A stretch of 45,326 bases of DNA, taken from the NCBI GenBank assembly GCA_016871895.1, contig VHBO01000013.1, forward strand, positions 1-45,326, given 5' to 3'. The notes under the pieces are model-generated. The model was not told where the DNA came from and did no database searches. It saw only the letters and a program-made list of their open reading frames with translations. Source of the DNA: Gemmatimonadota bacterium (GTDB lineage: Bacteria; Gemmatimonadota; Gemmatimonadetes; Gemmatimonadales; Gemmatimonadaceae). Every line of letters starts with the position of its first letter. Within the stretch, counting starts at the first letter, position 1. The position numbers and the translations under genes are program-made. Positions 9,358 to 34,717 of this stretch are shown here, in pieces.

Positions 9358-10302
9358 TCAGCGGGCGGCTTTTGCCCGCTGGCGCGCCATCGCCGCCGCC
9401 CCGCGGGCGGCGCGCACCTGGTCACCCTTCAGGTGGCATCCCGGCACCGCGTGCTTCAGCCGGTGCTCGACGAGCCGACGCAGGAAGCCGCCGCGCCCGA
9501 GCATCCCGCCCGAGAGCGCCACCGGGATCGCTGCGCGCTCATCGACGAAGAGCTGGCGCGCGAGGGTCCGCACGTGGAGTACGAGCTCCTCGGCGGCGAG
9601 CGTGCAGATCGCATTGGCGCGGAGGTCCCCGTCGGCGGCGACCGTGAGGACCGTCGGGGCGAAGGCGGCGAGCGCCTTCGGCGACGCGGCGGCCGCCCAG
9701 CCGATCAGACCATCGACCGATTCCAGCTCCAACGCGGTGAGGAGCGCCCCGACGAGCTTCGTCTCCGGCTCGCGTCCGTCGTGCGATGCGGTCACGACGC
9801 TGAGGGCGCGCCGCCCGATCCAGGCGCCACTCCCCTCGTCGCCGCAGACCGGGCCCCAGCCGCCGCAGCGGAGCAGGGTGCCTGTCGGGCCGCGGCCATA
9901 GGCGATCGAGCCGGTGCCGGCGATCAGCAGGATGCCCGGGCCGTCGCCGAAGGCGTCGGTGAGCGCCACCTCGGCGTCGGTCGTGACGAGGACGTCGTCC
10001 GCGAGGTCGGCCCGCTCGAGAATCCGCTGCAACGCCTGACGCTCGGCCTCCTGGCCGGCGCCGGCGACACCGACGACGAGGCCTGCGGGGCGCTCTGGAC
10101 CGTCCTCGCCGACCTCCCCCTGTGCCTCGGTCAGCGCGTCGCGAATGAGGTCGGTGATGACCTCGGCCGTGTGCAGCGCCTCGCCGGGGCGGAGGGCGCT
10201 GGCATCTCCGACACGAGCGGCCCGCTCCTTCCCCTTCCGGTCGACGACGACGACCTCGGTCTTGCTGCCCCCACCATCGACTCCCACGAAGAGCTGCGAC
10301 AT
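9358..10302 (-). CDS. BadF/BadG-type amino-sugar kinase (GlcNAc or MurNAc kinase)
   Basis: A 314-residue ASKHA-fold kinase of the BadF/BadG/BcrA/BcrD group, which includes mammalian NAGK and bacterial MurK. The phosphate-1 loop is 'GVDGGGSKTEVVV' at the N-terminus. Further motifs are 'TDAEVALTDAFGDGPGILLIAGTGS', cited here as 'TDAEVAL' and 'LLIAGTGSIAYG', followed by 'GDEGSGAWIGRRAL', and 'ALSGGMLGR' near the end. I chose the ATG at 10302 because the N-terminal motif begins directly there; the longer frame upstream runs through the transporter gene. It lies 17 nt behind a sodium:solute symporter and near NagZ/NamZ genes, so it probably phosphorylates GlcNAc or MurNAc freed from cell wall. Confidence 0.85.
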   Translation of the reverse strand: MSQLFVGVDGGGSKTEVVVVDRKGKERAARVGDASALRPGEALHTAEVITDLIRDALTEAQGEVGEDGPERPAGLVVGVAGAGQEAERQALQRILERADLADDVLVTTDAEVALTDAFGDGPGILLIAGTGSIAYGRGPTGTLLRCGGWGPVCGDEGSGAWIGRRALSVVTASHDGREPETKLVGALLTALELESVDGLIGWAAAASPKALAAFAPTVLTVAADGDLRANAICTLAAEELVLHVRTLARQLFVDERAAIPVALSGGMLGRGGFLRRLVEHRLKHAVPGCHLKGDQVRAARGAAAMARQRAKAAR

Positions 10303-10319
10303 GGCGCTGGATTCCCTGA

Positions 10320-11837
10320 TCAGACGGACCGCGCCCCCGTGGGCGCTGGATGAGTGAAGGAGGACAAGATACCTACGACGAGGGTGATCGTGGTGCCGAT
10401 CAGCACGAACCAGGGCCACGCGATCCCGATGAAGGGGGTCAGGAGCCCCGAGAGGGCTGGCACCGCCGCCACGATCCGGCCCGCGAAGACGATAAGGCTC
10501 ATCGTGCCGATCCCGACCGCCATCCCGAGGATGGCGTCCCGTTGGATGGCGCGGGGCCAACCGAGGGCGAGGAAGAACCCGCCCAGCAGCCCACCATACG
10601 TGAAGGAGGCGACCGAGAGGGCGATGACCACGACCGGCGTCCCTTCGGCGCGGTAGAGTAGGGCGCCGCCGATCAGGAGGGCCGCCCAGAGCAGCGTGAA
10701 CCGCTTCGAGACGCGGAGCATCGCGTCCGGGGAGGCACCGGCCCCACGCAGCGGGACCCAGAGGTCGTGGGTCGTCGCGGCGGCGAGCGAGTTGATCGAG
10801 CCGGAGATGGTGCTCATCGCGGCCGCGAGGATGGCGGCGATCACGACACCGGTCAGTCCGGCGGGCATCTGCTGGACGATGTACGTCGGGAAGATCTTGT
10901 CGGGGGCGGGGAAGCTCGTCCCACCGTAGAAGACCCAGAGGCCGAGGCCGATGGTGAGGAAGAGCGCGAACTGCGCGATGACGAAGACGCCGCTGCCGAT
11001 CAGCGCCCGGCGGGCGTCCGGGAGCGAGGCGGAGGCGAGGAGCCGTTGGACGATCAGCTGGTCGGCACCGTGCGAGGCCATCGCGAGGAACCCGCCGCCG
11101 AGGAGGCCGGCGAAGACGGTATGCGGCTGCCGCAGCGTGAGTGAGGCGTCGAACCACGCCAGCTTCCCGGCGCCGGCGGCCTGGGCCCAGACGGCACTCC
11201 AGCCGCCGTCGATGCCGCGCCCGAGCAGCACGACCGCCCCTGCCGCGCCACCGAGGTAGACGATCGTCTGGATGACGTCGGTCCAGACGACGGCGCGCAT
11301 CCCGCCGTGGTACGTGTACAGGACGGTGGCGCCGCCGAGCGCGAGGATCGAGATTGGGGTCAGCCAGGCGGCCGGGACGATTGGGCCGAGGATCAGCGCG
11401 ATCGGGATCGCGGTCGCGAAGACGCGTACCGAGTCGCCGAAGGCGCGGGTGAACATGAAGGTCACCGAGGCGAAGCGTCGCGTGGCGACGCCGAAGCGGC
11501 GTTCGAGCAGCGCGTACGCGGTCACGAGCTCCCCGTCCATATAGCGTGGCAGGAGCGTGTAGGCGACGACGATGCGACCGAGGAGATACCCGACCGTCAC
11601 CTGCAGGAACCCGAGGTTCCCGAGGTAGGAGAGTCCGGGGATCGAGATGAAGGTGAGCGCGCTCGTCTCGGTGGCGACGATTGAGAAGCAGACGGCCCAC
11701 CACGGGATAGTGCCGCTGGCGACGAAATAATCCTTGCTGTCCTTCTGGCCTCGGCCGAGGTGGATGCCGAGCCAGGTGGTACCGGCGAGGTAGGCGACGA
11801 GGATCGCCCAGTCGAGGGAGGTGAAGGTCGCGGTCAT
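10320..11837 (-). CDS. sodium:solute symporter (SSS family), probable amino-sugar importer
   Basis: A 505-residue inner-membrane transporter with about thirteen hydrophobic segments. Its beginning, 'DWAILVAYLAGTTWLGIHLG', and the following 'KDSKDYFVASGTIPWWAVC' are typical of SSS proteins. Core motifs follow: 'ATETSALTFISIPGLSY' in the sodium-site region, 'YTYHGGMRAVVWTDVIQ', and 'ISGSINSLAAATTHDLWVP'. The latter two are characteristic of the SGLT-like subgroup. It precedes the BadF-type kinase by 17 nt, forming a transport-plus-phosphorylation pair. With NagZ and NamZ close by, I infer uptake of MurNAc, GlcNAc or a small muropeptide sugar. The ATG at 11837 has no evident Shine-Dalgarno sequence. 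Confidence 0.88.
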   Translation of the reverse strand: MTATFTSLDWAILVAYLAGTTWLGIHLGRGQKDSKDYFVASGTIPWWAVCFSIVATETSALTFISIPGLSYLGNLGFLQVTVGYLLGRIVVAYTLLPRYMDGELVTAYALLERRFGVATRRFASVTFMFTRAFGDSVRVFATAIPIALILGPIVPAAWLTPISILALGGATVLYTYHGGMRAVVWTDVIQTIVYLGGAAGAVVLLGRGIDGGWSAVWAQAAGAGKLAWFDASLTLRQPHTVFAGLLGGGFLAMASHGADQLIVQRLLASASLPDARRALIGSGVFVIAQFALFLTIGLGLWVFYGGTSFPAPDKIFPTYIVQQMPAGLTGVVIAAILAAAMSTISGSINSLAAATTHDLWVPLRGAGASPDAMLRVSKRFTLLWAALLIGGALLYRAEGTPVVVIALSVASFTYGGLLGGFFLALGWPRAIQRDAILGMAVGIGTMSLIVFAGRIVAAVPALSGLLTPFIGIAWPWFVLIGTTITLVVGILSSFTHPAPTGARSV

Positions 11838-11885
11838 CGCGTGGGCCCGGGGGAAGGGGAAGGGCGGCGCGTGGGGGGGAAATGC

Positions 11886-11911
11886 GACGGGCGCCCATTG
11901 GGGCGCCCGTC
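11886..11911 (-). terminator. hairpin downstream of the Fe-S carrier gene
   Basis: A 10-bp perfect stem (GACGGGCGCC/GGCGCCCGTC) on a 6-nt loop, 21 nt beyond the stop of the minus-strand A-type carrier. Reading on the minus strand, it is followed by GCATTT, a weak T run. It probably separates the carrier from the symporter-kinase pair. Confidence 0.6.
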
Positions 11912-11932
11912 AGTCGATTCACCGGTGGCCGA

Positions 11933-12289
11933 TCAGGCCGAGAAGCTGCTCCCGCAGCCGCAGCCGCCGGTCGCGTTCGGGTTCTTGAAGGTGAAGCCCG
12001 ACCCCTGCATCGACGTGACATAGTCGATCGTCACGCCATTCAGGTACTGCATCGAGAAGGGATCGACGAAGACGTTGAACCCGGCCTGCGGCAGCACCGT
12101 GTCGTCGTCCGCCGGCTTGTCCTCGATGAGGAGCGAGTACTTGAAGCCGGAGCAGCCGCCGGGCTGCACGCTGACGCGCAGACCGCCGACCTCGGGGGCG
12201 ACGTTCTCCGCGGCCATGAACTTCTGCACCTCGGTCGCCGCGGCCGGGGTGATCGAAACCATCGTCTCAGGGGCGTTCATCGTGCTCAT
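11933..12289 (-). CDS. A-type iron-sulfur carrier (ErpA/IscA/SufA family)
   Basis: A 118-residue HesB/IscA-fold protein that accepts Fe-S clusters from the assembly machinery and passes them to apo-proteins. The three ligand cysteines are in place: 'QPGGCSGFKY' in the middle and 'GGCGCGSSF' at the C-terminus. 'VTIDYVTSMQGSGFTFKNPNA' is typical of the family; quoted in part, 'YVTSMQGSGFTF' and 'NPNA'. The N-terminal extension is short. GGAGG 6 nt before the ATG at 12289 fixes the start. No suf or isc operon is in the window, so it is a stand-alone carrier, most like ErpA. Confidence 0.93.
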   Translation of the reverse strand: MSTMNAPETMVSITPAAATEVQKFMAAENVAPEVGGLRVSVQPGGCSGFKYSLLIEDKPADDDTVLPQAGFNVFVDPFSMQYLNGVTIDYVTSMQGSGFTFKNPNATGGCGCGSSFSA

Positions 12290-12343
12290 CGTGGACCTCC
12301 GCGAGCGGGGTTGCGGGCGTCGGCTGACGACCCGATTACTGAT

Positions 12344-12352
12344 GGGAATATA
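12344..12352 (-). promoter_or_regulatory. TA-N2-TT -10 box for the Fe-S carrier
   Basis: Read on the minus strand, TATATTCCC lies 55 nt upstream of the carrier start in the 151-bp gap behind the NagZ gene. It is a good match to the TA-N2-TT box. No clear -35 box is present. Confidence 0.45.
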
Positions 12353-12440
12353 GAACCGCGGACGGGTGAGGGGCCACCACGCCGTGAGGAACGGGTGGGG
12401 CTTGGCCGGCGCCGCCGACGCGATGGGCCCCCGGTGCTCG

Positions 12441-15332
12441 TCAGGGACTGCCGCGGCCGTTGCCGGCCGGCGCGAGTGTCGCCGCCGTCTCGGCCACCGT
12501 CGTCCGGACCCGCGCGATTCCGGTCCGCTCCCTGGTGGGATTCACCCGGTTCGTCAGGAGGATCACGAAGCGGTCGTTCGCCGGGTCGATCCACAGCGAC
12601 GTCCCGGTGAACCCGGTATGGCCGAAGGCCGGGGCGCGCATCAGTCGACCGGCGGAATTCCCCCCCGTCGGGACCTCCCACCCCAGCGCCCGATTCGAGA
12701 AGCCGGGGCGCTGGACGGTCGTGAAGCGGCGGATGGTCTCCGGCTCGAAGATCCGTACCCCCTCGAGCGCCCCGCCGTTGAGGTAGAGCCGCGCGAACCG
12801 GACGAGATCCGCCCCGGTGCTGAAGAGCCCCGCGTGACCGGAGACCCCGCCGAGGAGATGGGCGTTCTCGTCGTGGACCTCACCGCGGAGGAGTCGACCG
12901 CGCCAGGGGTCGCGTTCGGTGGGGGCGATGCGCGCGCGGAGCGATGTCGGCGGCAGGAAGCGGGTGTCTCGCATTCCGGCGGCGGTGAACACGTGCGCCG
13001 CGAGGTAGCGATCGAGGGGCTCGCCGCTCACGCGCTCGACCACCCAGCCGAGGAGCATCGCCCCGAGGTCGGAATAGACCATCCGCGCGCCTGGCACGGT
13101 GTCGAGCGAGGCGTCGAGGACGATCCGTCGCGCTTCTGCGGCGCTCGTGGTGCGCTTCCAAAGCTGGATGAAGGGGGCGAGTCCGCCGGAGTGCGTGAGA
13201 AGGTGCCGTATGGTGACGGCGTCCTTGCCGCGGCCCTGCCACTCCGGGAGGTAGCGCTGCACCGGCGCGTCGAGGTCGATCCGTCCCTGCCTGACGAGCT
13301 GCATCATCGCGCTCGTCAGGCCGACGACCTTGGTGAGGGACGCCATATCCCAGATGGTCTCGAGCGTCGGCGCCGGGGCGTCCGCGGCCCAGTCGATGCG
13401 GCCGGCGCTGACCTGACTGAGGATACCGGCCCGGTTCCCGACGATCGCGATGCCGCCCGGGAAGATCGAGTCGCGCACGGCGGCCTCGAGGATGCGGCGG
13501 AGGGAATCCTCGAGCGGCCGGACGTCCGGTGAGCGGTCGGCGCCGTCGCCGGCACGGAAGTAGCCGGGGAGGGTGATCGGCGCGCGCCCCGCGAACGGGA
13601 TGGCGCCGGCCACGGCGCGAGCGGCGGCGCGCTCGACGGCATCCCCGCGACCGAAGGTCGCGACGTACGCGGAGACGCGGTTGAACTCGCGCAGCACATA
13701 TGGGTTCGAGAACGCGACCACCGTGACCGGTCGCGTCCAGGCGACCGAGTCAATCCACTGCGCGACGTGCGCCCCGACGGCGAAGCGCCCTTCCCCCTCG
13801 ATGGTGCGCACAAATGTCGCGAGGACCATCCGCTCCCCGGGTCGGAGGAGCGAGTCGAGCCGCGCGCGTGAGGTGGCCGGCGAGATGCGGAGGAGGCGTC
13901 CCTCACCGAGCCGCCCCCGCAGCTCCGCGGCAAAGGTACGGCCGGCGTTCACGTCCGATTCACCCGCGAAGGTGACGATGGCCGTCGCGGTGCCGCGCGT
14001 CAGGGGGAGGACCGCGCCGGTGTTCCGGAGGAGGGTGATGGCGCCGTCGGCGATGCCTTGGGCCACCGCGCGATGCGGGGCGGCGCCGACGATCTCGCGG
14101 AGCGAGTCGAGGTCGACGATCGGCCGCTGGATGGCCCCGGTGCGGATCTTCATCTCGAGGATCCGGCGCACCGAGGCATCGATCCGCGCGGCCGGGATCT
14201 CCCCACGCGCGATGGCGGCGAGCACGGCCCCGATGGCGCCCCCGACGTCGGCGGGCATCAGGAGGAGGTCGGCGCCCGCCTGCACCGCACGGACGGAGCT
14301 GACCTCGTTCGGGTACCCCGCGCCGACGCCGCGCATATCCATCGCGTCGGTGACCGCGAGCCCGCGGAAGGCGAGGGTGTCGCGGAGGAGCCCCTCGAAG
14401 ATCGCGGGGACCAAGGTGGCGGGGGTGGAGTCGCCCGCGACCGCGGGGAGGGCGATATGCGCACTCATCACGGCTGCGACGCCCGCGTCGATCGCGGCGC
14501 GGAAGGGGCGCAGTTCCATCGAGTCGAGTCGAGCGCGGCTCGCGGTCACGATCGGGAGCGCGAGGTGCGAGTCGGTATCGGTGTCCCCGTGGCCCGGGAA
14601 GTGTTTGACAGTCGCCGCGACGCCGGCCTCCTGCACACCGGCGACGAAGGCGGCACTCATCGCCGAGACCTGCGCGGGATCCTCGCCGAAGGACCGGACA
14701 TTGATGACCGGATTCGCCGGATTGTTGTTGACGTCGACCGTCGGCGCGAAGGCGAGGTGGATGCCGATCGCCCGTGACTCGCGCCCCGTGATGCGCCCGG
14801 CCTCGCGCGCGAAGTCCACGCGCCCGGTGGCGCCGATCGCCATGTTGTTCGGGAGCACGGTCGCATCGCCCCCCCGGAGGAGCCCGGGAGTGAAGGTCCC
14901 CCCCTCGAGGCGCCCCAAGCCCGGCTCGACGTCGGAGGCCACGAGGAGCGGGAGCGCCGCGCGACGCTGCAGCGCGTTCACCTTCGCGGCGACCTCGATC
15001 GGGGAGCCGAGCGACATCACGACACCACCGACCTTGTCCTCCGTGATGCGGGCGGCCGCCCAGGCGAACGCGGAGTCCGTCGTGCTCGTATAATCCCCCA
15101 ACACCCAGATCATCACCATCTGGGCGACCTTGTCCCGCAGCGGCATCGCGGCAAGGGTCGAATCGATCCAGCGGGTCGCGGCGCGCGGCAGTGGCGCCGA
15201 GAGGGAGACGGGGACGTCGTGCAGGGCACCGGGGCGTGGCGCGGGCGTGGGTCCACCGGAGCCAATCGGGGTGCAGGCGATGGCGAGACAGGCGCCGGCG
15301 AGGCCGGCCACACGAACGGGGGCGGGATGCAT
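12441..15332 (-). CDS. NagZ-type GH3 beta-N-acetylglucosaminidase fused to AmiE-like serine hydrolase
   Basis: A 963-residue exported protein with two enzymes in one chain. The N-terminus is a signal peptide, perhaps a lipoprotein ('LAIAC'). Residues about 55-400 are a GH3 NagZ domain. It holds the NagZ-specific 'KHFPGHGDTDTDSHLALP' (Lys243-His244, with the His-Asp acid/base loop) and the nucleophile motif 'VTDAMDMRG'. About 410-590 look like a GH3 C-terminal-type domain. About 600-950 are a beta-lactamase/PBP-like serine hydrolase with SxxK 'SLTK' (Ser665, Lys668), 'YSD' and 'HTG'. In Bacillus subtilis separate NagZ and AmiE (YbbE) remove GlcNAc and the stem peptide from muropeptides; here they are joined. 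The start at 15332 follows the signal peptide; the frame stays open upstream into the divergent gene. Confidence 0.88.
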   Translation of the reverse strand: MHPAPVRVAGLAGACLAIACTPIGSGGPTPAPRPGALHDVPVSLSAPLPRAATRWIDSTLAAMPLRDKVAQMVMIWVLGDYTSTTDSAFAWAAARITEDKVGGVVMSLGSPIEVAAKVNALQRRAALPLLVASDVEPGLGRLEGGTFTPGLLRGGDATVLPNNMAIGATGRVDFAREAGRITGRESRAIGIHLAFAPTVDVNNNPANPVINVRSFGEDPAQVSAMSAAFVAGVQEAGVAATVKHFPGHGDTDTDSHLALPIVTASRARLDSMELRPFRAAIDAGVAAVMSAHIALPAVAGDSTPATLVPAIFEGLLRDTLAFRGLAVTDAMDMRGVGAGYPNEVSSVRAVQAGADLLLMPADVGGAIGAVLAAIARGEIPAARIDASVRRILEMKIRTGAIQRPIVDLDSLREIVGAAPHRAVAQGIADGAITLLRNTGAVLPLTRGTATAIVTFAGESDVNAGRTFAAELRGRLGEGRLLRISPATSRARLDSLLRPGERMVLATFVRTIEGEGRFAVGAHVAQWIDSVAWTRPVTVVAFSNPYVLREFNRVSAYVATFGRGDAVERAAARAVAGAIPFAGRAPITLPGYFRAGDGADRSPDVRPLEDSLRRILEAAVRDSIFPGGIAIVGNRAGILSQVSAGRIDWAADAPAPTLETIWDMASLTKVVGLTSAMMQLVRQGRIDLDAPVQRYLPEWQGRGKDAVTIRHLLTHSGGLAPFIQLWKRTTSAAEARRIVLDASLDTVPGARMVYSDLGAMLLGWVVERVSGEPLDRYLAAHVFTAAGMRDTRFLPPTSLRARIAPTERDPWRGRLLRGEVHDENAHLLGGVSGHAGLFSTGADLVRFARLYLNGGALEGVRIFEPETIRRFTTVQRPGFSNRALGWEVPTGGNSAGRLMRAPAFGHTGFTGTSLWIDPANDRFVILLTNRVNPTRERTGIARVRTTVAETAATLAPAGNGRGSP

Positions 15333-15362
15333 CGTCACGGACGGCTTCGGGAGGGAGAGGGG

Positions 15363-16676
15363 GTGCGCGGAGCGATGGGTGTCGCGGCGGCGTGGATGCG
15401 CTGGCTGGCGGTGCTGCTGCTGGTGGCGTGCGCGCCGGCCCCGGCATCGCGCGCCCAGGCGCACCCGACGCGGGACGCGCGCCCGACGTTCGCCCCCGGG
15501 ATGACGGTCCTGCTGGAGGATTCGTTGCAGGTGCTCGCCGGGCGCCGCATCGCGGTCATCACGAACCACACCGGAATCGATCTCGAGGGACGGTCGATTG
15601 TCGACCTGCTGCGCGAGGATCCGCGGGCTCGCCGGGCGAACATCTCGGTGGTGCGGCTGTTCTCCCCCGAGCACGGGATCCGCGGCGATGTCGACCACAC
15701 GAACGTGCCGGACGCCGTCGACCCGCGGTCGGGGCTCATGGTGCACTCGCTATACACCCGCGAGACGATCCCGCCGCCGGACTCGCTGCTCCGCGACGTC
15801 GATGCGCTCGTCTTCGACCTGCAGGACATCGGCACGCGCACCTGGACCTATGTCGGGGTAATGGTCTATGCGATGCGCGCCGCGGCGCGCGTGGGCATTC
15901 CGTTCGTGGTGCTCGACCGACCGAACCCAATCACCGGCCGGATGGAGGCGCCGCTCCTCGACTCGGCCCTCGCGAATCCCGAGGACCCGACGCCGACGCG
16001 GCGCGGCGCCGCCTTCGCATTATATCCCGCGCCGCTCCGGCACGGGATGACGATGGGGGAGCTGGCGCGGTGGTTCGCCGCGGAACTGCCCATCCCCGCT
16101 CAGCTCACCGTCGTCGCGATGCGTGGCTATCGGCGGGGGATGTGGTGGGAGGAGACCGGGCTCCGTTGGGTGGTCCCGTCCCCGGCGATGGTCTCTCCGC
16201 TGAGCGCGTTGGTCTATCCCGCGCTCGTCGCGCTCGAGGGGACGAACCTCTCGGTGGGGCGGGGGACGCGCGAACCCTTCCAGCGATTCGGGGCGCCCTG
16301 GCTCGACGCCCCCCGCGTCGCGACGGCGATGAACGAGCTGGGGCTCGCGGGGGTCCGGTTCGACGCCGAACGCTTCACCCCGGTGAACAGTCCGGACAAC
16401 AAGTTCAGCGGGCGGGAGATCCCGGGCATCCGCATCGTCGTGGAGGATCGGGACCGCTTCCAGGCCGGCCGGGTCGGCGCGGCGGTGCTCTGGGCGCTGC
16501 GGCGCGCCCACGCGGATTCGCTGCGCGTGAACGCCCGGACGATGGACATGCGCTTCGGGTCGACGGCGGCGCGTGTCGCGCTCGATTCGGCCGCGGACCC
16601 GAACGAGGTGATCGATCGCCTGCAGCCGGAGGTCGTCGCCTTCCAGCGTCGCGTCCGTCCGTACCTGCTGTACTGA
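15363..16676 (+). CDS. NamZ-like exo-beta-N-acetylmuramidase (DUF1343, GH171), lipoprotein
   Basis: A 437-residue DUF1343 protein. The family's characterised member, NamZ (YbbC) of Bacillus subtilis, cleaves MurNAc from the non-reducing end of peptidoglycan sugars. Seen here are a signal peptide with a good lipobox (LVAC), 'RRIAVITNHTGID', the family motif 'FSPEHGIRGD' with its conserved Glu-His, 'VDALVFDLQDIGTRTWTY', 'LDRPNPITG', 'EGTNLSVGRGT' and 'PFQRFGAPWL'. I chose GTG 15363 because GGAGG sits 8 nt upstream; ATG 15375 is an alternative. Only 30 bp separate it from the divergent NagZ-AmiE gene, so their promoters must overlap and the two are probably regulated together. Confidence 0.88.
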   Translation: MRGAMGVAAAWMRWLAVLLLVACAPAPASRAQAHPTRDARPTFAPGMTVLLEDSLQVLAGRRIAVITNHTGIDLEGRSIVDLLREDPRARRANISVVRLFSPEHGIRGDVDHTNVPDAVDPRSGLMVHSLYTRETIPPPDSLLRDVDALVFDLQDIGTRTWTYVGVMVYAMRAAARVGIPFVVLDRPNPITGRMEAPLLDSALANPEDPTPTRRGAAFALYPAPLRHGMTMGELARWFAAELPIPAQLTVVAMRGYRRGMWWEETGLRWVVPSPAMVSPLSALVYPALVALEGTNLSVGRGTREPFQRFGAPWLDAPRVATAMNELGLAGVRFDAERFTPVNSPDNKFSGREIPGIRIVVEDRDRFQAGRVGAAVLWALRRAHADSLRVNARTMDMRFGSTAARVALDSAADPNEVIDRLQPEVVAFQRRVRPYLLY

Positions 16677-16680
16677 GCGC

Positions 16681-17307
16681 GTGACCACCCGGGAGACGCT
16701 CCTGCGGCCCTGGTGGGCGATCGTCCGTGGCTATCTGCGGTTGATCGAGCCACTGGTCGCGTGGTGCGTGCGACGCGGGATTGCGCCCAACACCATCACG
16801 GTCGTCGGGACGCTCGTGGCGGCGGTCGTCGGGGGGCTCTTCGCGGTCGGTCGGGTCGCCGCCGGCGGGTGGACCCTCGGGCTCCTCGCCTTCTTCGACG
16901 TCATCGACGGCGAGGTGGCGCGCCGCACCGGCCGCGCGACCGCGTACGGGGCCTTCCTCGACGCCACCCTTGACCGCGTGGCGGACGCCTGCCTCCTCGG
17001 CGGGCTCGTCGTGCTCTACGCGACCCATCCGGTCCACCGCTCTGGCGCGATGGTCGTCGTCGCGCTCGTCGCGCTCGTCGCGACGCAGCTCACCTCCTAC
17101 ACCCGTGCCCGAGCCGACCTCGCCGGCATCGACCTCAAGGGCGTCGGGTGGTTCGAACGCCCCGAGCGGATCACCCTCCTCGCCGCGCCGCAGGCCTTCT
17201 TCGGGCTCCGGTTTGAGGGACGCGTGCTCGCCGGCGTCGTGAGCCTGCTGGCCATCGCGGGGGTGGTGACGGTCTGGCAGCGGATGCGCCGCGTGGCGCA
17301 GGGCTGA
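16681..17307 (+). CDS. CDP-alcohol phosphatidyltransferase family protein
   Basis: A 208-residue integral membrane enzyme that moves a phosphatidyl group from a CDP-lipid to an alcohol (glycerol phosphate, inositol phosphate, serine or similar). The full family motif D-G-x2-A-R-x8-G-x3-D-x3-D is present as 'DGEVARRTGRATAYGAFLD' followed by ATLD. At least four hydrophobic segments follow. It starts with GTG 4 nt after NamZ, so it belongs to that transcript. Which alcohol is used is not clear; the length and 'RRGIAPNTITVVG' fit PgsA-like or archaetidylinositol-phosphate-synthase-like members. Confidence 0.87.
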   Translation: MTTRETLLRPWWAIVRGYLRLIEPLVAWCVRRGIAPNTITVVGTLVAAVVGGLFAVGRVAAGGWTLGLLAFFDVIDGEVARRTGRATAYGAFLDATLDRVADACLLGGLVVLYATHPVHRSGAMVVVALVALVATQLTSYTRARADLAGIDLKGVGWFERPERITLLAAPQAFFGLRFEGRVLAGVVSLLAIAGVVTVWQRMRRVAQG

Positions 17308-32923: not shown

Positions 32924-34717
32924 ATGACCAAGCCACGGACCGACGAGGGGATCGCGACGATCGCCCGCAATGCACGTGCCCGCCACGACTACGAGATCCT
33001 CGAGACGTGGGAGGCCGGCATTATGCTGCTCGGCACCGAGGTGAAGTCGCTGCGCGATGGGCGGGCCCAGATCACGGACGCGTACGCGGTCGTGAAGGAT
33101 GGGGAGGTCTGGCTGCTCAACGCGCACATCGCCCCGTACTCGCACGGCAACGTGTGGAACCACGAACCGACCCGAAGCCGCAAGCTCCTCCTGCACGCGC
33201 GGGAGATCCGCAAGCTGATCGGGGCGGTCGAACGCAAGGGGCTCACGCTCGTGGCACTCGAACTCTATTTCAAAGACGGCCGCGCGAAGGTCCGCATCGG
33301 ACTCGCCCGCGGCAAGAAGCTCCACGACAAGCGTGCCGATGCACGCGAACGCGATGCGAAGCGCGAGATGGCGCGCGCGGTCCGTACCGTGAAGGGGCTC
33401 GTCCTGGCGCTCGCACTCGGCCTGGCGATGCCGCTCGTCGCGGCACCGCCAGGCCCCGTGATCCGCGTGCGGAGTGCCGCGGGGGACACGGCGGTCGCCG
33501 TGGTGGCGAGTCCCTCCGGCGGTGCCGTGCGCGCGGATGTCGTCGCGCGTCTCCTCGGCGGGGCACTCGAGGTGCGTGGACCCGGGCGCTGGCGGCTGGC
33601 GATTGGGGGCGCTGCGTTCGATCTCGAGGCGGGATCTCCGTTCGCCGCGTACAACGGTTTCCCTCTGCCGCTCGTCGAGTCCCCGCGGTTGGTCGATGGG
33701 GCGCCTGCCGTCCCGCTGCAACTCTTTAGCGAGATTCTCCCGCGATTCGACGTTGGCGTGCGATGGGATCGCACCGCAGGAGCGCTGCATCGTGACCGGC
33801 AGGGGACGGTCGCGCGCGTGGCGCCGGTGGACGAGGGGCGGCCGGACCGCGCCGCTGCTCCGCGCGCCGAATCCACCAGACGCGATGGCAGTGGGGTCGC
33901 GGCCGAGGGGGCGCTCGGGGCCGCGGCGGCGCTCGGCGCCGGGAGCGAGGCGGCGGGTCGCACATCCCCGGCCCCGCGCCTCTCTCGATCGTACACCGTC
34001 GTCGTGGACGCCGGGCACGGCGGACGCGACCCCGGTATGCGTGGCGCCGTCGTCGACGGCCGCGCGCTGAGCGAGGCCCGGATCACCCTCGAGATCGCGA
34101 AACGCGTCAAGGCGGAACTCGAGGCGCTCGGGCTCCGGGTGCTGATGACCCGCACGACGGATACTCTGATCAATCTCTTCCATCGCGGCCCGATCGCGAA
34201 CCGCGCGAGCGGCGACCTCTTCGTCTCCGTGCACGTAAACGCGGCCAATCCGAAGTGGAACAATCCCACGGCGGCGCGTGGCTTCGAGACATTCTATCTC
34301 TCGACGGCACGGACCGAGGATGAAGCGCACGTCGCCGCGATGGAAAACGACGTCGTCCATTTTGAGACTGAGGCCGATGCGCCCCGTGGCAACGATGCGC
34401 TCGCCTTCATCCTGAACGACCTAGCTCGGAACGAGCATCTGCGGGAGTCGAAGGAGATCGCGGCGGTGGTGCAGCGCCGGCTCGCCGGGATCCACCCGGG
34501 GCCGAATCGCGGGGTGAAGCAGGCCGGCCTCGCCGTCCTGTCCACGGCGTATATGCCGGCGGTGCTCGTCGAGGTCGGCTTCGGGTCCAACCCCGCGGAG
34601 GCGCGGTGGATGTCGAGCGACGCGGGGCAGGCCGATGCCGCGCGCGCCATCGCCGAGGCGGCGCACGAATATCTCGTCGACTACGACCGGCGGCGCGCCC
34701 GGCCTGCCACGCGATGA
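32924..34717 (+). CDS. SmpB fused in frame to N-acetylmuramoyl-L-alanine amidase
   Basis: A 597-codon uninterrupted frame with two unrelated modules. Residues 1-155 are SmpB, the tmRNA-binding protein of ribosome rescue: '[19 protein letters not shown]', 'IAPYSHGN', '[19 protein letters not shown]', and the complete basic tail '[18 protein letters not shown]'. From codon 156 (GTG 33389) a perfect signal peptide follows ('[18 protein letters not shown]'). Next is a copper-amine-oxidase-N-like domain (about 180-280), a low-complexity linker, and an Amidase_3 domain. That domain has zinc His365 ('[10 protein letters not shown]'), 'FVSVHVNA' and the Glu in '[11 protein letters not shown]'. SmpB acts in the cytoplasm and the amidase outside it, so one chain is puzzling. 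Internal initiation or a lost stop is likely. Confidence 0.8.
33389..34717 (+). other. possible separate amidase reading from internal GTG
   Basis: Starting at GTG 33389, the same frame yields a complete 442-residue exported Amidase_3 protein with its signal peptide at the very N-terminus. The GTG sits in GTGA, and the TGA (33390-33392) lies one frame away from SmpB. GTGA start-stop overlaps are frequent in this genome, so this looks like an original SmpB-stop/amidase-start junction in which SmpB has slipped into frame. There is no Shine-Dalgarno sequence before the GTG. Offered as an alternative to the fusion. Confidence 0.5.

Follow-up and report, generated by a model that had tools for sequence, protein, structure and literature searches.

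A stretch of 45,326 nucleotides from a Gemmatimonadota bacterium (contig VHBO01000013.1, here called the window) carries between positions 9358 and 16676 a group of genes that very probably serves to salvage the amino sugars of peptidoglycan, N-acetylmuramic acid (MurNAc) and N-acetylglucosamine (GlcNAc). A first-pass annotation had lined up four functions here, namely the exo-muramidase NamZ, a NagZ domain of glycoside hydrolase family 3 (GH3) fused to an AmiE-like serine hydrolase, a sodium:solute symporter (SSF) and a BadF-type sugar kinase. Profile matches confirm all four genes at their predicted positions, but the line-up was incomplete, as a gene for an ErpA-type Fe-S protein is interposed between the fusion and the symporter. 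Transcription on the minus strand proceeds from the NagZ-AmiE fusion through ErpA and the symporter to the BadF kinase, the start of which was set at 10302. The features are as follows.

9358-10302, minus strand: BadF-type sugar kinase, MurK/NAGK-like, 314 amino acids (PF01869, 98.7 bits, cut-off 31.5)
10320-11837, minus strand: sodium:solute symporter, proposed MurNAc/GlcNAc importer (PF00474, 117.5 bits, cut-off 22.8; TIGR00813, 189.8 bits, cut-off 184)
11854-11932, no strand: site of the NagB-PIG-L insertion of relatives (79 bp in the window, about 2.0 kb in relative L178)
11933-12289, minus strand: ErpA/IscA-type Fe-S protein gene, in the same place in relatives (TIGR00049, 123.1 bits, cut-off 58.8)
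12441-15332, minus strand: NagZ-AmiE fusion, predicted lipoprotein (LAIAC, Cys20), 963 amino acids, from domain and motif matches
12507-13499, minus strand: beta-lactamase-fold (AmiE-like) domain of the fusion, residues 612-942 (205.3 bits)
14154-15140, minus strand: GH3 (NagZ) domain of the fusion, residues 65-393 (GH3 N domain, 270.9 bits)
15333-15362, no strand: spacer separating the divergent nagZ-amiE and namZ genes, read from the sequence
15363-16676, plus strand: NamZ exo-beta-N-acetylmuramidase, predicted lipoprotein (LLVAC, by eye; PF07075, 208.8 bits; PF20732, 137.2 bits)
16681-17307, plus strand: CDP-alcohol phosphatidyltransferase, phosphatidylinositol-phosphate-synthase-like (PF01066, 47.2 bits; NF045883, 148 bits, below its cut-off of 170)

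Both domains of NamZ, NamZ_N and NamZ_C, score above their cut-offs, and the protein has relatives of solved structure (4k05, 4jja). The 30-bp divergent gap described in the first-pass annotation holds if NamZ starts at the GTG at 15363; in-frame ATG codons at 15375 and 15396 are alternative candidates. Lipoprotein-like signals open both hydrolases. In the GH3 half of the fusion, K243-H244 within the KHFPGHG motif, the D254-x-H256 dyad (the Asp-x-His dyad of GH3 enzymes described in PMC6987092) and the nucleophile D329 are all present, and the best PDB matches are GH3 enzymes annotated as GlcNAcases together with Bacillus subtilis YbbD/NagZ. The GH3 C domain (28.1 bits, cut-off 31) and the NCBIfam beta-N-acetylhexosaminidase model PRK05337 (144.7 bits, cut-off 207) are matched below threshold. 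The second half carries S665-x-x-K668 (S-L-T-K), Y753-S-D755 and H905-T-G907, and its putative identity as AmiE draws on fold, motifs and context. An exported signal followed by GH3 domains and then a beta-lactamase domain is the arrangement of RmNag3, an exo-GlcNAcase of Rhodothermus marinus (PMC6987092), and the NagZ-AmiE type of fusion is thus an architecture already known. RmNag3 cleaves chitobiose, chitopentaose and pNP-GlcNAc (PMC6987092). The two systems differ in their surroundings, as the window fusion faces NamZ and RmNag3 has no adjacent glycoside hydrolase gene.

The catalytic features are well kept among relatives. The GH3 catalytic columns are intact in the window fusion and in 38 of 39 exported rows, and the AmiE domains have S-x-x-K and Y-S-D in 65/65 and H-T-G in 64/65. 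As a test of export the lipobox pattern alone was too strict (21/39 exported and 0/40 cytosolic rows), and a hydrophobicity measure was added; a hydrophobic segment lies N-terminal of the GH3 domain in 37/38 exported versus 2/37 cytosolic rows, a count that omits one exported and three cytosolic rows that were too short. The full-length fusion was not found in plasmid records, where 0 of 95 matching records reached 80% cover in one place.

The window kinase is the one BadF protein found in its own genome, an assembly of 2,279,195 bases in 129 contigs that is 96.19% complete. A profile built from six relatives matched the MurNAc/GlcNAc kinase 8zo3 over its full length with 187.9 bits, making this the best solved relative, and scored a hexokinase at 122 bits and GlcNAc kinases at 114.8 and 82.2 bits; the MurNAc-kinase-type structures 8oqw and 8ow9, of the Tannerella MurK type, are far more distant (31.5 bits). 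The catalytic Asp of the BadF family is conserved in 65/65 relatives, the window included, and the D-x-G-x-S/T motif is present. Tannerella MurK lines its lactyl site with small residues (S133-P134-L135 and T94; PMC10465942). Placed by offset from the GDEGSG motif, the corresponding positions of the window kinase are G-G-W and T, which it shares with human NAGK. The residue at T94 was considered as a test for MurNAc kinases and dropped, as 8zo3 has N in that place. One kinase probably takes both MurNAc and GlcNAc, which would suit the cluster because the cluster would free both sugars. The symporter is assigned its sugar from gene context, and the substrate specificities proposed for symporter, kinase and AmiE half are all provisional to that degree. 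No sign was found that kinase or symporter serves an unrelated sugar, a possibility on which the first-pass annotation had staked its proposal: the closest kinase relative is 8zo3, and the SSF and BadF genes lie on one strand less than 500 bp apart in 41 of the 42 loci holding both.

To place the locus in a wider setting we sampled 61 genomes of the order, of which 60 have a NamZ locus and 60 a MurQ locus, and scored the neighbourhoods with custom profiles. Each genome enters the cluster counts with its best NamZ locus, and the counts, given contig ends, are lower bounds. NamZ itself is present in 60/61 genomes, and BadF, SSF and NamZ occur together in at least 42/61, across three families. 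Exported GH3 was found in 37/61, AmiE in 35/61, both in 29/61 and the two fused in 9/61. Counting any NamZ locus, exported GH3 occurs in 38 genomes and is head-to-head with NamZ in 38/38 loci. The conserved neighbourhood that the first-pass annotation had called for is therefore borne out. NamZ also occurs outside any such cluster, as some of the copies in multi-copy genomes and as the sole copy in genomes G019 and G022. A second SSF of about 600 amino acids stands in the cluster of 19/61 genomes, in many cases with NagZ or AmiE absent (for example L038 7012-8877 and L049 5444-7243).

A search of the genome_contigs collection with four fusion sequences returned 38 loci, the best with 93% identity over the fusion. 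All but one lie in records named Gemmatimonadota, Gemmatimonadetes, Gemmatimonadaceae or Gemmatimonas (37/38). The remaining locus, L209, is labelled Candidatus Kuenenia stuttgartiensis; it holds a cluster of the Gemmatimonadota type, and probably the label is wrong or the bin is mixed. A quick tree built from 77 GH3 domains has exported and cytosolic forms split by one fully supported branch, and the fused state requires two changes, one in a clade of eight (genera g1, g8 and g10) and one in genome G039 alone. On the simplest reading of this tree, two separate fusions would have taken place within a nagZ-amiE gene order that is common in unfused form.

The cytosolic steps are encoded elsewhere. 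As the first-pass annotation had supposed, the MurQ etherase and the kinase AnmK are outside the window: the search of its genome for murQ that the annotation had recommended recovered that gene (365.7 bits), and anmK (315 bits) was found as well, both on contig C11, which rules out a single operon with murQ. The part of that supposition which did not hold concerns the later steps, as neither NagA nor NagB was found in the genome. MurQ is above cut-off in 60/61 genomes of the order, the window's own included, and AnmK is beside it in 56. In the window's genome (L034 8749-12472) murQ and anmK are followed by a signal-less GH3 gene, with successive 4-bp overlaps, and a GH3 gene adjoins murQ in 40/60 MurQ loci. 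Residues K243, H244, D254, H256 and D329 are all intact in 33 of these 40, the exceptions being four members of the window's genus (G000, G001, G028 and G058), a fragment (G038), one substitution (G060) and a gap (G049). The genus copy (L034 11006-12472 in the window's genome) has lost catalytic residues in 4/4 members examined, with Lys243 and the dyad His changed in each, and the four form one clade in the quick tree. Within the genus, this GH3 has a protein identity of 0.54, compared with 0.76 in MurQ and 0.73 in AnmK. Dividing the differences at codon positions 1+2 by those at position 3 gives 0.58, against 0.33 for MurQ and 0.39 for AnmK (0.46 for the GH3 of family f3); this measure, taken over 18 loci, is rough because third positions are much changed. 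Because identity is low, the codon-position ratio is raised and the reading frame is open in all four, these data suggest relaxed or changed constraint on the genus GH3, not plain decay.

Family searches for the remainder of the lower pathway gave a different picture. NagA (TIGR00221) is below cut-off in 61/61 genomes of the order and 200/200 of the phylum, compared with 7 of 14 control genomes that exceed it; the best match in the window's genome has 26.5 bits against a cut-off of 225.65. Within the window's class NagA matches do not exceed 41.3 bits among the matches listed, and six genomes of a deep family have best matches of 109-182 bits. Low scores, with most weak matches covering only the ends of the model, also spoke against a NagA disguised as some other amidohydrolase in the window's genome or class, though a divergent NagA may exist. 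NagB had no match in this genome, although TIGR00502 is above cut-off in 39/61 genomes of the order, mostly in frames of at least 600 amino acids. Such a frame in the same genus (L036 3682-5616) proved to be NagB joined to PIG-L (87.3 and 66.6 bits), and it matches NF002557 (PRK02122), a family named only "glucosamine-6-phosphate deaminase-like protein", with 857 bits against a cut-off of 384.

Because Pfam describes PIG-L as a GlcNAc-phosphatidylinositol de-N-acetylase, it is reasonable to regard NagB-PIG-L as a candidate deacetylase-deaminase that could substitute for NagA. NF002557 is above cut-off in 125/200 phylum genomes and 1/14 control genomes. The other 75 of the 200 are below its cut-off yet also without NagA, and NagB-PIG-L therefore cannot be the whole answer. 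Its gene lies inside the cluster in 10/61 genomes of the order; among the 24 genome_contigs loci that cover both ErpA and SSF, 9 have it between the two. Neither the window nor the rest of its genome gave a match to NF002557. The closest relative, L178, is 86-88% identical in nucleotides to the window on both sides of 11854-11932 (blastn), and carries NagB-PIG-L in the roughly 2.0 kb that separates ErpA from its symporter. Because more distant relatives hold the gene at the same place, its loss in the window's lineage would be simpler than repeated gain, though it may have moved in and out. In the window's genus it is present in 5/10 genomes and had no match in five, the window's own included; of these five, two are assemblies of 1 and 7 contigs with a completeness of 100%. 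Other substitutes were sought and rejected: the single PIG-L protein found in the window's genome is BshB1 (237.2 bits, cut-off 182.5), and clustering of MurQ neighbours gave a conserved set without a fitting candidate (by eye from L034 a phosphatase, a kinase, a protease, a gamma-glutamyltransferase, an ABC transporter and a cytochrome-biogenesis gene). A literature search for NagB paired with PIG-L or LmbE found no publication on the pair among those listed, subscription journals lying largely outside its reach.

Taken together, homology and synteny support the reading of the locus as an outside-first salvage set for peptidoglycan amino sugars, each enzymatic step and the sugar carried being assigned from family and context. 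Two predicted lipoproteins would nibble at glycan ends outside the cell, NamZ removing non-reducing MurNAc and the GH3 half of the fusion non-reducing GlcNAc, with the AmiE-like half stripping the peptide from MurNAc. The free sugars would enter through the sodium symporter and be phosphorylated at C6 by the single kinase, and MurQ, encoded together with AnmK in an operon of its own, would convert MurNAc 6-phosphate (MurNAc-6P) to GlcNAc 6-phosphate (GlcNAc-6P). In relatives that keep it, NagB-PIG-L probably deacetylates and deaminates GlcNAc-6P; in the window's lineage GlcNAc-6P may be returned to UDP-GlcNAc.

The ybbC gene of Bacillus subtilis, which we take to be namZ, belongs to that organism's recycling cluster. 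The cluster has the order murQ-murR-murP-amiE-nagZ-ybbC (PMC5061867). As in the genome studied here, NagZ and AmiE would work outside the cell, their genes adjoin namZ, and MurQ is the cytosolic etherase. The window differs in encoding NagZ and AmiE as one protein and in having a sodium symporter and BadF kinase in place of the phosphotransferase system (PTS) protein MurP; murQ lies with anmK on another contig, and no MurR was seen in the cluster. Tannerella forsythia, with its murTKQ operon, is closer in uptake, as it also pairs a sodium-symporter-type MurNAc importer (MurT) with a BadF-family 6-kinase (MurK) (PMC5790795, PMC10465942), but in the genome studied here murQ is not adjacent. MurT and MurK are described as rescuing an E. 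coli murP mutant on MurNAc when supplied together and not one at a time (PMC5790795). The distinctive combination is a fused exported hydrolase, a sodium symporter with a BadF kinase, a detached murQ-anmK pair and no recognised NagA.

Several observations weigh against the salvage reading. The kinase is not the NagK_SO3507 equivalog (NF046058, 84.6 bits, cut-off 370), and its residues do not settle a preference for MurNAc over GlcNAc, the residue before the catalytic Asp being T as in Tannerella MurK and N in 8zo3. The closest NCBIfam models to the AmiE half, PBP4B, AcmB and LipE, stand for other beta-lactamase-fold enzymes, and all are matched below cut-off. The set does not form one operon with murQ, the genome has no recognised NagA, NagB or NagB-PIG-L for the step after MurQ, and its assembly is split into 129 contigs.

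The genes might also be neighbours by inherited order only, with NamZ and the fusion serving wall turnover and the symporter and kinase another sugar. The ErpA gene kept in place between the two groups means that order alone is no proof of function, and no regulator linking them was seen; however, SSF and BadF remain close to NamZ as a pair in three families of the order, and the cluster of some relatives has taken in NagB-PIG-L, whose domains mark it as an amino-sugar enzyme. We consider this explanation unlikely. A set for scavenging GlcNAc or chitin oligomers, with a chitobiase-like exo-GlcNAcase fusion, a GlcNAc kinase and an unrelated esterase or peptidase as the beta-lactamase-fold half, seems to us decidedly unlikely. 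NamZ is invariably head-to-head with exported GH3, the near-universal MurQ is specific to MurNAc-6P and usually has AnmK at its side, and the best kinase relative is named for both sugars. What speaks for chitin is that the kinase is NAGK-like with GlcNAc kinases among its next PDB relatives, that the AmiE half is absent from the cluster in some relatives and that RmNag3 is active on chitobiose and chitopentaose (PMC6987092).

We give very little credence to a wall-remodelling or beta-lactam-response locus, in which the beta-lactamase-fold half would bind or hydrolyse penicillin and the glycosidases would trim the cell's own wall. The half does match class C beta-lactamase and PBP4B models, but far below cut-off (42.1 of 415 bits for class C), and the presence of a linked symporter and kinase suggests uptake. 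Class C beta-lactamases have K-T-G as their third motif, in contrast to the H-T-G found here. The authors of the RmNag3 study do tie their domain to beta-lactamase induction (PMC6987092).

The ErpA-type protein is probably outside the pathway, though interposed and kept in place, and the CDP-alcohol phosphatidyltransferase, which begins a few bases 3' of NamZ, is a conserved neighbour unattached to it. In relatives NamZ is next to this phosphatidylinositol-phosphate-synthase-like gene, often with a myo-inositol-1-phosphate synthase (L049 11116-12444); the latter was not found next to NamZ in the window, where only the former occurs. Further along the window (32924-34717), residues 5-154 of a single 597-amino-acid frame read as SmpB and residues 343-595 as an N-acetylmuramoyl-L-alanine amidase. 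NamZ also matched 28 plasmid records, among them four of Haladaptatus and four of Halorussus. Two haloarchaeal plasmids, L225 (Halorussus limi NZ_CP096661) and L226 (Haladaptatus salinisoli NZ_CP085329), carry an anhydro-MurNAc kinase, a serine hydrolase, a DUF1343 (NamZ) protein and nagZ close together, and the salvage-like island of L225 also holds a peptidoglycan recognition protein. To our knowledge archaea have no bacterial peptidoglycan. A term search of a paper on archaeal hydrolases (PMC12352652) gave no hits for NagZ, NamZ or DUF1343.

The locus offers a PTS-free version of the outside-first route of Bacillus, and its fused, split and partial forms in 61 genomes allow comparison. As MurQ is near universal in the order and NagA unrecognised in the class, something else must use GlcNAc-6P, and NagB-PIG-L, a widespread family, is the obvious candidate. 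We offer tentatively, and as a possibility we would not ourselves favour, a broader scheme in which the Gemmatimonadota are free of NagA and one cluster-linked NagB-PIG-L would deacetylate (PIG-L) and deaminate (NagB) the GlcNAc-6P arising from MurQ and the kinase. The window's lineage would have deleted this protein, so that its cluster could do no more than feed wall sugars back into new wall, from GlcNAc-6P to UDP-GlcNAc without deacetylation, and would not burn them, and the dead cytosolic GH3 behind murQ-anmK would act as a sensor or scaffold. The question is testable, and the window's genus includes both holders and losers of NagB-PIG-L.

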